DNA of 64,000 nt, taken from a virus. Positions 38,775 through 40,120 of the stretch are shown here, piece after piece. The translations under genes and the position numbers were made by a program. Location: positions 1 to 64,000 of the IMG/VR virus record IMGVR_UViG_3300011116_000673. One strand, given 5' to 3'. Each line of letters starts with the position of its first letter. Position 1 is the stretch's first letter. The notes under the pieces were generated by a model. The model was given only the letters and a program-made list of their open reading frames with translations, had not been told where the DNA came from and searched no databases.

Positions 38775-39401
38775 ATGCAGAAGTCTAGGTACTACATAAT
38801 TGCTGGTACTGGTAATTCAAGCGCCAATGTAATAGAAACTGGTTTAAGCGACGTGTCGTTGACCGCAAAAGAGTTTGTGGTTCTTTGGACTGGCAAACCC
38901 ACCGATGGTCAGAGTCGTGTTTACGATTGGCTCATAGAACATTCAGCGTCATTCACAGTAATTCATTCCGATACAAAAGTTCATCACATTGTTGAGGGTG
39001 CTGCAAACAGAGTATTAAAAGTAGACAACCTTGTTGAAGATAGTTTGGACAGTTACCCTGATGCCACAGTACTTGTTTTATGGGATGAAGTTGCTACTTT
39101 TGACCAGCCCACTCAGTTTGTAGAAGAGACCGTTCTTATGGCTAATTCAAAGGGTATGGAGACTTTAGACCTTTGCAACGGTTTAGTCCCACTAACAGTT
39201 GGGGAACCAACAGAAGACAAGCCCGTAGAGGCCTCTAGGAAGCCCCAGGATGCGTCAAAAAAGGATACCCTTCCCCCTACACAGGATTCAAGTTCTAAGC
39301 CCTCTAATGAGCTGTATACGCTTACCTATGTAAATAACGGTCAACTTGCCACAATTAGTGGTTCTAAGAAAAAAATACTGGAGTTCTTAAACCCACAGTG
39401 A
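38775..39401 (+). CDS. Hypothetical alpha/beta protein, disordered linker
   Basis: 208 residues, ribosome site AGGAGG. Residues 1-135 have alternating strands and helices: YYIIAGTGNSS, FVVLWTGKPTDGQSRVYDWLI, ATVLVLWDEV. This suggests a Rossmann-like fold. About 145-185 is a Lys/Ser/Pro/Asp linker, then a small beta end (YTLTYVNNGQLATISGSKK). Last gene before the structured leader of the replication block. Function unknown. Confidence 0.6.
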   Translation: MQKSRYYIIAGTGNSSANVIETGLSDVSLTAKEFVVLWTGKPTDGQSRVYDWLIEHSASFTVIHSDTKVHHIVEGAANRVLKVDNLVEDSLDSYPDATVLVLWDEVATFDQPTQFVEETVLMANSKGMETLDLCNGLVPLTVGEPTEDKPVEASRKPQDASKKDTLPPTQDSSSKPSNELYTLTYVNNGQLATISGSKKKILEFLNPQ

Positions 39402-39404
39402 GGA

Positions 39405-39502
39405 CGTTGGTAAGAAGGGAAACCAACGCCCCCACTATCAAGTGGGCCTTGCGCAGTTACTAAATAACTCGCAATAGTAAACAGGAGAAGGGAACTGTTT
39501 AC
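39405..39502 (+). ncRNA. Structured leader with two hairpins sharing one loop sequence
   Basis: In the 143-base gap before the initiator gene I see three perfect hairpins. P1: CGTTGGT/ACCAACG (39405-39428) with loop AAGAAGGGAA. P2: CCCACT-ATCA-AGTGGG (39431-39446). P3: GTAAACAG/CTGTTTAC (39477-39502) with loop GAGAAGGGAA. P1 and P3 have unrelated stems but loops identical in nine of ten bases. No U-tract follows any of them, and a ribosome site (GAGG, 39531) lies downstream. It looks like a regulatory RNA or protein-binding leader; the ligand is unknown. Confidence 0.55.
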
Positions 39503-39544
39503 TTACCAAAAGCATAACACGATCACTAGAGAGGATGCAACTAT

Positions 39545-40120
39545 ATGAAACAGAAAAGTGCAGGCGAGAATACCAAATTAGGAGGTCCTTGGATTTCCAT
39601 ACCGACTTGGGTTGTTAAGTACATGAAAGGCGATTCCATAGCTTTGCACGTATTGACTTGTGCCATTGGTTACATGAATACACATGATCAAACTTTATCT
39701 ACGACCTATGACGTTTTGGCTAGAGATACCGGATACAACCGTAGGACTGTGATTAGGGCTATGCATCGTTTGGTTGAGATTGGGGTCATTCGCAAAATTG
39801 TAAAGATGGGTAGGCATGGAAAGAACATGCCAAATTTGTACGTAATTACGTACAATACGGCAGCCGCAGAAGCCTTAATTAATGGGGGTGACTCCAGAGA
39901 CACTGGGGTATTTAGTAGTGACTCTACAGACACTCCTGCAGTGACTCCAGAGACACTCATATTGAGTGACTCCACAGACACCCAAATAAGAAAGAAAAAT
40001 AATTATAAGAAGGAAAACCAAAAGAAAGGGAAGAGTACTAAGAGCTTAGATCTATACTCAACGGACAGTCGGTGGAACCGACAGTTAAAACTTACTGACG
40101 GGAGAAACAGCAATGGGTAA
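39545..40120 (+). CDS. Winged-helix replication-initiator-like protein
   Basis: 191 residues, ribosome site GAGG. The N-terminal 100 residues form a helix-turn-helix: SIALHVLTCAIGYMN, TYDVLARDTGYNRRTVIRAMHRLVEIGVIRKI and a wing, the HTH_36 style of phage replication proteins. About 110-150 is an Asp/Ser/Thr tract produced by iteron-like DNA repeats (see the repeat feature), then a Lys-rich end. It is first in the replication operon and is followed by a helicase loader, as lambda O precedes P. Probably the origin binder. Confidence 0.7.
   Translation: MKQKSAGENTKLGGPWISIPTWVVKYMKGDSIALHVLTCAIGYMNTHDQTLSTTYDVLARDTGYNRRTVIRAMHRLVEIGVIRKIVKMGRHGKNMPNLYVITYNTAAAEALINGGDSRDTGVFSSDSTDTPAVTPETLILSDSTDTQIRKKNNYKKENQKKGKSTKSLDLYSTDSRWNRQLKLTDGRNSNG
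39888..39982 (+). repeat. Four iteron-like 17-bp direct repeats
   Basis: Copies of GTGACTCCAGAGACACT start at 39888, 39918, 39941 and 39966. Copies 1 and 3 are identical; copies 2 and 4 each differ at two bases. Start-to-start distances are 30, 23 and 25. Copy 3 is read in a different codon phase from the other three (VTPETL against DSRDT/DSTDT), so the DNA rather than the protein is conserved. Confidence 0.75.
39888..40040. other. Candidate replication origin (iterons plus A-rich tract)
   Basis: The four repeats are followed at once by an A-rich, strongly purine-biased tract (about 39983-40040, with AAATAATTATAAG in it) suitable as a DNA unwinding element. The whole lies inside the gene of the probable initiator and just upstream of helicase loader, helicase and primase genes. 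This copies the arrangement of the lambda origin inside gene O. Inferred, not proven. Confidence 0.55.

Follow-up and report, generated by a model that had tools for sequence, protein, structure and literature searches.

The 64,000-nucleotide stretch of viral DNA analysed here (the window, taken from a 71.5-kb IMG/VR virus record) carries two hairpins with unrelated stems and almost the same purine loop in front of a set of replication genes, and this arrangement raises the question of what kind of element they form and on which strand it is read. On the plus strand, the first hairpin consists of CGTTGGT (39405-39411), the loop AAGAAGGGAA (39412-39421) and ACCAACG (39422-39428). The second consists of GTAAACAG (39477-39484), the loop GAGAAGGGAA (39485-39494) and CTGTTTAC (39495-39502), and its stem can be extended to 9 bp. 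The loops are identical at 9 of 10 nucleotides, and a search of both strands of the window for AGAAGGGAA yields only the sites at 39413 and 39486. Both hairpins lie where the original prediction had placed them, and the third hairpin that it described between the other two is present at 39450-39473. Chance is a poor source of such pairs: when hairpins with 7-bp stems and 10-nt loops lying within 150 nt were sought, the window contained one pair sharing 9 of 10 loop letters, versus none in 200 random 64-kb sequences of first-order composition.

The surrounding genes suggest both a host and a function for the locus. The window encodes an SPP1-type portal, capsid and sheath proteins, followed by an O-like initiator, a DnaC-like loader, DnaB helicase, DnaG primase and a helicase, and all predicted genes are on the plus strand except for four small ones that are probably spurious. 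An actinobacterial host is likely, because for the portal (53-58% identity) and DnaB (~33%) the closest named phages are Streptomyces phages. The features that flank the hairpins are as follows.

38775-39401, plus strand: upstream gene for a 208-aa protein with no assigned function, syntenic in relatives
39545-40120, plus strand: gene for an O-like replication initiator with an HTH (phrog_270, E 3e-11; phrog_391 and phrog_678, 'replication initiation O-like')
39887-39987, plus strand: four iterons AGTGACTCYASAGACACT at a spacing of 23-30, inside the O-like gene
~39985-40049, plus strand: A-rich, AT-rich stretch after the iterons, with GC down to 0.30

The iterons and the AT-rich stretch within the O-like gene make this region a candidate lambda-type replication origin.

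Relatives of this locus are found among viral contigs. The initiator gene is present at 81-100% in 11 of them, and scans with three DnaB proteins gave ~170 loci (numbered with the prefix L), of which many are overlapping copies of the same contigs and several are fragments. Gene order is conserved in the relatives, running from baseplate through a small gene, the 208-aa gene and the initiator to the DnaC-like gene and DnaB. Four iterons at 22-30 nt spacing occupy the same place in the window, L150, L165, L156, L204 and L180, and L185 and L191 carry shorter or split iteron families. The idea that a conserved loop is presented on unrelated stems is borne out by these sequences. In a leader alignment of near relatives both loops are invariant and the stems change by compensation, and relatives with DnaB identity down to ~65% have quite different stems at the same position, with loops of similar character that are likewise pyrimidine loops on the strand argued for below.

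Folding of the two strands gives an MFE of -53.1 kcal/mol (z -5.97) for the minus strand, compared with -42.1 kcal/mol (z -3.44) for the plus strand. In the minus-strand fold, the first hairpin spans 39390-39448 and is paired over 22 bp, with a bulge of 5 nt in the stem. We infer that a small structured RNA of ~115 nt is transcribed leftward from 39504 to 39390, with the following parts and predicted promoter elements.

39535-39540, minus strand: predicted -35 element TTGCAT of a leftward sigma70-type promoter with an 18-bp spacer
39511-39516, minus strand: predicted -10 element TATGCT, preceded by TGT (extended -10); TANNNT occurs here in nearly all relatives
39390-39504, minus strand: putative leftward RNA, ~115 nt with predicted ends, placed on this strand by the fold (z -5.97) and by covariance-model matches that are all minus
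39476-39503, minus strand: hairpin A, first in the RNA, with a 9-bp stem and the loop UUCCCUUCUC at 39485-39494
39450-39473, minus strand: hairpin B, in the middle (the third hairpin of the original prediction), with a 10-bp stem and one bulged base
39390-39448, minus strand: hairpin C, last in the RNA, with 7 bp, a 5-nt bulge on the 5ʹ side (39437-39441), 15 bp and the loop UUCCCUUCUU at 39412-39421

The choice of strand is decided mainly by hairpin C. Among 26 distinct stems, in a count that favours neither strand, pairs read on the plus strand comprise 276 Watson-Crick, 5 G.U and 36 A.C combinations. Because the plus-strand mismatches are nearly all A.C, which are read as G.U on the minus strand, the stems point to a minus-strand RNA. 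Within the window clade, 22 of 22 hairpin C pairs are standard on the minus strand in all 8 sequences (100% of cells), as against 70% and 83% of cells for its two helices on the plus strand. Six hairpin C pairs have changed on both sides within this clade. Hairpin A has two pairs changed on both sides and is paired in 97% of cells, and hairpin B has one (UA to CG), such that compensatory changes are seen in all helices. Taken alone, hairpins A and B are strand-neutral, with a single cell of hairpin B, from one relative, favouring the plus strand. In the subgroup L176, L183, L192, L195 and L198, the plus strand folds slightly better. As a separate observation, in L176, L183, L191, L192, L195, L198 and L303 a larger structure encloses the last hairpin and contains a second CCUCCUC stretch, and the strand signal is mixed.

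A conserved promoter agrees with this assignment. The leftward promoter sits to the right of the hairpins, inside the 5ʹ untranslated region of the initiator gene, and its predicted start (~39504) coincides with the base of hairpin A. Variants of the -10 element in relatives include TATGCT, TATAGT, TACGCT, TACACT and TAAACT. The pattern TTGNNN-N16-19-TANNNT occurs on the minus strand in 19 of 25 unique leaders, versus a mean of 3.8 and a maximum of 10 in shuffled sequences, and on the plus strand in 1 of 25. Pairing fidelity and the conserved promoter therefore place the RNA on the opposite strand from the replication operon, directed away from it, and its loops are consequently C/U-rich rather than purine. 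Two parts of the original prediction are not supported in this light, namely that the hairpins form a replication-operon leader with a purine loop and that they might act as an anti-Shine-Dalgarno-like decoy on the replication-operon mRNA; the RNA is read from the other strand.

Covariance searching over related phages, as the original prediction had proposed, recovers the same RNA at greater distances. A first model (R1), derived from the window clade alone, was used to search both strands of 515 kb of relatives and controls, and its 12 matches at E<=1 correspond to the window, L150, L152 and nine divergent relatives (L165, L154, L215, L171, L161, L170, L156, L168 and L172). All 12 are full length, on the minus strand and at the same locus, and nothing else in the 515 kb matched at E<=1. 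A second model rebuilt with these matches (R2) adds L180, L185, L189, L204, L228, L229 and L234, and in L326 and L329 it matches just a portion of the last hairpin, all on the minus strand at E<=0.014; the next matches appear only at E>=3. Whole records contain one significant copy per phage wherever the model matches. Two-sided changes occur in 38 of 41 pairs of the R1-fitted alignment, a count biased towards the model by construction and hence to be taken as supporting evidence only.

Simpler searches give a similar picture. A hairpin-plus-loop descriptor run on both strands of the redundant loci yields 24 distinct matches, of which 23 are at this locus and 1 is elsewhere. The pattern GGNCTTTNCCTCCTTTCTNNCC occurs in 17 viral stretches, 16 of which have a stem of at least 7 bp, and in 14 stretches of bacterial or archaeal genomes, where one has a 7-bp stem and none has more. 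When viral contigs were searched for the exact two-loop pattern AGAAGGGAA..AGAAGGGAA, essentially only this RNA's family was paired at both loops among the matches listed, and the others among them resembled chance purine matches.

The original prediction also suggested that the hairpins might be part of a new structured RNA. This suggestion is supported by the invariant loops and compensated stems of the near relatives and by the pyrimidine loops on different stems in more distant ones. Rfam searches with the window and relatives gave nothing at the gathering threshold and only sub-threshold matches, mostly to miRNA families. The sequence comparisons make it very probable that a conserved minus-strand structured RNA lies behind the leftward promoter, and its structure, strand, promoter and genomic context are well supported computationally. 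We found no paper describing this RNA among open-licence papers. Among named phages, neither the nucleotide sequence nor the initiator protein found a match, and the DnaB scan of bacterial genomes gave no relative. Streptomyces phage pSt2308, whose portal and DnaB are related, was considered as a carrier of the RNA; its apparent 208-aa homologue (L316:12692-13753) is followed by the next gene after only 2 nt, and it therefore has no room for the RNA locus.

Unpaired stems or a freely drifting loop in related phages, which the original prediction had named as evidence against itself, were not seen within the family; an outer clade keeps the promoter and differs in its loop. In this clade (L194, L205, L209, L210 and L217) there are hairpins with other loops, and the promoter is kept in most members. 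These five loci also have leftward genes to the left of the promoter, with a TAAAAT/TAAACT-like box a few bases ahead of the first start codon, which from sequence suggests that the genes are expressed as leaderless early mRNAs. A further arrangement is found in L326 and L329, where DnaB is 37% identical. There, the same loop, UCUUUACCUCCUUUCUC, tops a hairpin that lies in sense orientation directly before polA; the placement of this hairpin is given below.

L326:6562-6608 and L329:2291-2337, minus strand: polA-leader hairpin between two genes, with the loop UCUUUACCUCCUUUCUC

Pairing would be possible between this loop and the AGGAG in the ribosome-binding site of the gene that follows. L326 has another TTTACCTCC-like site, which does not form a hairpin of this type.

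What the loops might recognise was approached through their sequences. Many relatives carry CUUUACCUCCUUUCU as their loop, a sequence that matches the 3ʹ tail of 16S rRNA. The last loop holds ACCUCCUUUC(U) in L180, L183, L185, L189, L192, L203, L204, L234 and L326, and this sequence matches the actinobacterial 16S rRNA 3ʹ end over 10-12 nt. For all loops together, the longest run shared with the 16S tail averages 8.1 nt, compared with 5.2 nt for permuted loops. The corresponding run in the window-like group (4.4 versus 4.8 permuted) is not above permutation, and 16S mimicry is thus limited to part of the family that does not include the window's clade. One speculative proposal is that an actinophage small RNA by the origin shows a copy of the 16S 3ʹ tail (ACCUCCUUUCU) in its loop, serving as an anti-Shine-Dalgarno mimic that would reprogramme translation initiation or as a decoy of a factor recognising the ribosome 3ʹ end, with the window's clade a diverged version; we judge this to be quite unlikely. 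Tests of the window loops against the phage's own ribosome-binding sites showed no preference, as 140 of 300 and 221 of 300 permuted loops were at least as strong.

Known systems offer three useful comparisons. The lambda origin has its iterons inside the O-type initiator gene, and the same is true here, where an O-like initiator carrying iterons and an AT-rich stretch are both present in the sequence. The counterpart of lambda pO, a leftward promoter between the preceding gene and the initiator, is likewise present (TTGCAT-N18-TATGCT, 39540-39511 on the minus strand) and is kept in relatives. As with lambda OOP, a short leftward RNA would begin at a promoter, in this case a predicted one, just upstream of an O-type initiator gene, and would overlap the 3ʹ end of the preceding gene in antisense; by coordinates, the last 12 nt of the 208-aa gene overlap the 3ʹ part of the RNA if it ends at ~39390. 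Unlike lambda OOP, the RNA displays conserved C/U loops on two hairpins and has a long bulged stem, and no clear U-tract terminator is found after hairpin C, which is followed by UUUAAGAACUCC (mean of 4.9 U in 12 nt across relatives). The preceding gene also differs, encoding the 208-aa protein and not cII, to which oop is an antisense RNA (PMC3985674).

The 6C RNA (Rfam RF01066; mycobacterial B11) is likewise a small RNA with two hairpins that expose cytosine-containing loops, in what is likely the same actinobacterial setting, and the cytosine-rich loops of that RNA pair with ribosome-binding sites (PMC10470900). By contrast, the RNA described here is phage-encoded, has an extra middle hairpin, and has CCC or CCUCC in its loops instead of runs of about six C residues; the window loops UUCCCUUCUC and UUCCCUUCUU contain only CCC. 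Membership in RF01066 was rejected, because cmscan of the region to E 5 gave no covariance match, nor was there one in relatives. A direct RF01066 search of 7 records to E 10 also gave no match, with a weak control in which no control genome exceeded the cut-off. Mycobacteriophages RedRock, Alma and LadyBird provide another actinophage noncoding RNA adjoining replication functions, as part of RNA-based prophage origins (PMC7157519), which are located by parABS and have no RepA-like protein, whereas a protein initiator with iterons is present here. By position the leftward RNA is a variant of the oop kind, and its loop chemistry resembles that of the 6C kind; the RNA is filed as a member of neither, because a defining feature of each fails. 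The closest mechanism, by analogy, would be that of the actinobacterial 6C/B11 RNA, despite the failed membership tests.

The explanation that we favour, and consider reasonably probable as a whole statement that includes loop pairing, is that a conserved sigma70-type promoter produces a stable, trans-acting leftward RNA whose pyrimidine loops pair with ribosome-binding-site-like mRNA. Transcription would proceed against gene direction from the promoter in the 5ʹ untranslated region of the O-like gene, and the RNA would fold into three hairpins, of which the 5ʹ one and the long, bulged 3ʹ one would expose C/U-rich loops on either side of the middle one. We infer that these exposed loops may pair with purine-rich mRNA sites, as in 6C/B11 RNA, and transcription so close to the origin may in addition modulate replication, in the manner of lambda pO. 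Several observations count against this explanation, including the missing U-tract, the other loops of the outer relatives, the slightly better plus-strand fold in the subgroup of five named above, and the sense rather than antisense orientation of the last hairpin before polA in L326 and L329. That the phage's ribosome-binding sites show no preference for the loops also counts against the 6C-like targeting step, and the same null result would fit an account in which the same leftward RNA is read at its loops by a phage or host protein, or serves as a decoy for a recogniser of the 16S 3ʹ tail, instead of pairing with mRNA. Stem bulges are a common protein-binding feature, and hairpin C has one. 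Within groups of relatives the loop sequences hardly vary as the stems change, the loops of many relatives match the 16S tail over 9-12 nt, and the same-loop hairpin before polA is also in accord. Window-like loops, however, do not exceed permuted ones in what they share with the 16S tail, and we regard protein or decoy recognition as rather unlikely.

It is also conceivable that leftward transcription by the origin is what matters, through topology or collision with rightward transcription, with the hairpins only terminating or stabilising a by-product RNA. The promoter is conserved more widely than the loops, its placement relative to the O-like gene and the iterons is as in lambda, and lambda replication is affected by pO activity rather than by oop RNA (PMC3985674). 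Such an element would leave unexplained both the conservation of loops on changing stems and the compensatory changes in all helices, and we consider it improbable. Far less credible is a plus-strand leader of the replication operon whose Shine-Dalgarno-like purine loops act in ribosome standby, as a decoy or as an mRNA stabiliser. Several relatives have plus-strand loops equal to AGAAAGGAGGT, a full Shine-Dalgarno sequence that lacks a nearby start codon; neither helix A nor helix B tells the strands apart, and one relative favours plus in hairpin B. Set against these points are 36 A.C versus 5 G.U on the plus strand, a promoter conserved on the minus strand with none such on the plus, and covariance-model matches at E<3 that are all minus; plus-strand standby or decoy function was set aside on the first two of these. 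The least credible reading dispenses with RNA and treats the inverted repeats as DNA, either operators or single-stranded hairpins for replication initiation. The predicted origin adjoins the hairpins, hairpin A abuts the promoter, and G.T pairing in single-stranded DNA could give the same sequence signal. However, the G.U-type asymmetry and the location downstream of a promoter favour RNA, and a double-stranded operator is expected to keep its arms and not the spacer, the opposite of what is seen.

This RNA represents a structured phage RNA family that matches nothing in Rfam. Viral contigs from many metagenomes carry it, and its setting is a lambda-like pO-O-ori module in genomes that resemble those of actinobacteriophages. 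Its analysis also indicates that counting A.C versus G.U mismatches across relatives can serve as a cheap strand call for structured RNA. For the biology of these phages, the finding makes testable the possibility that an oop-type RNA acts through loop pairing like 6C RNA, and it raises the testable question of whether phages exploit mimicry of the 16S rRNA 3ʹ end.
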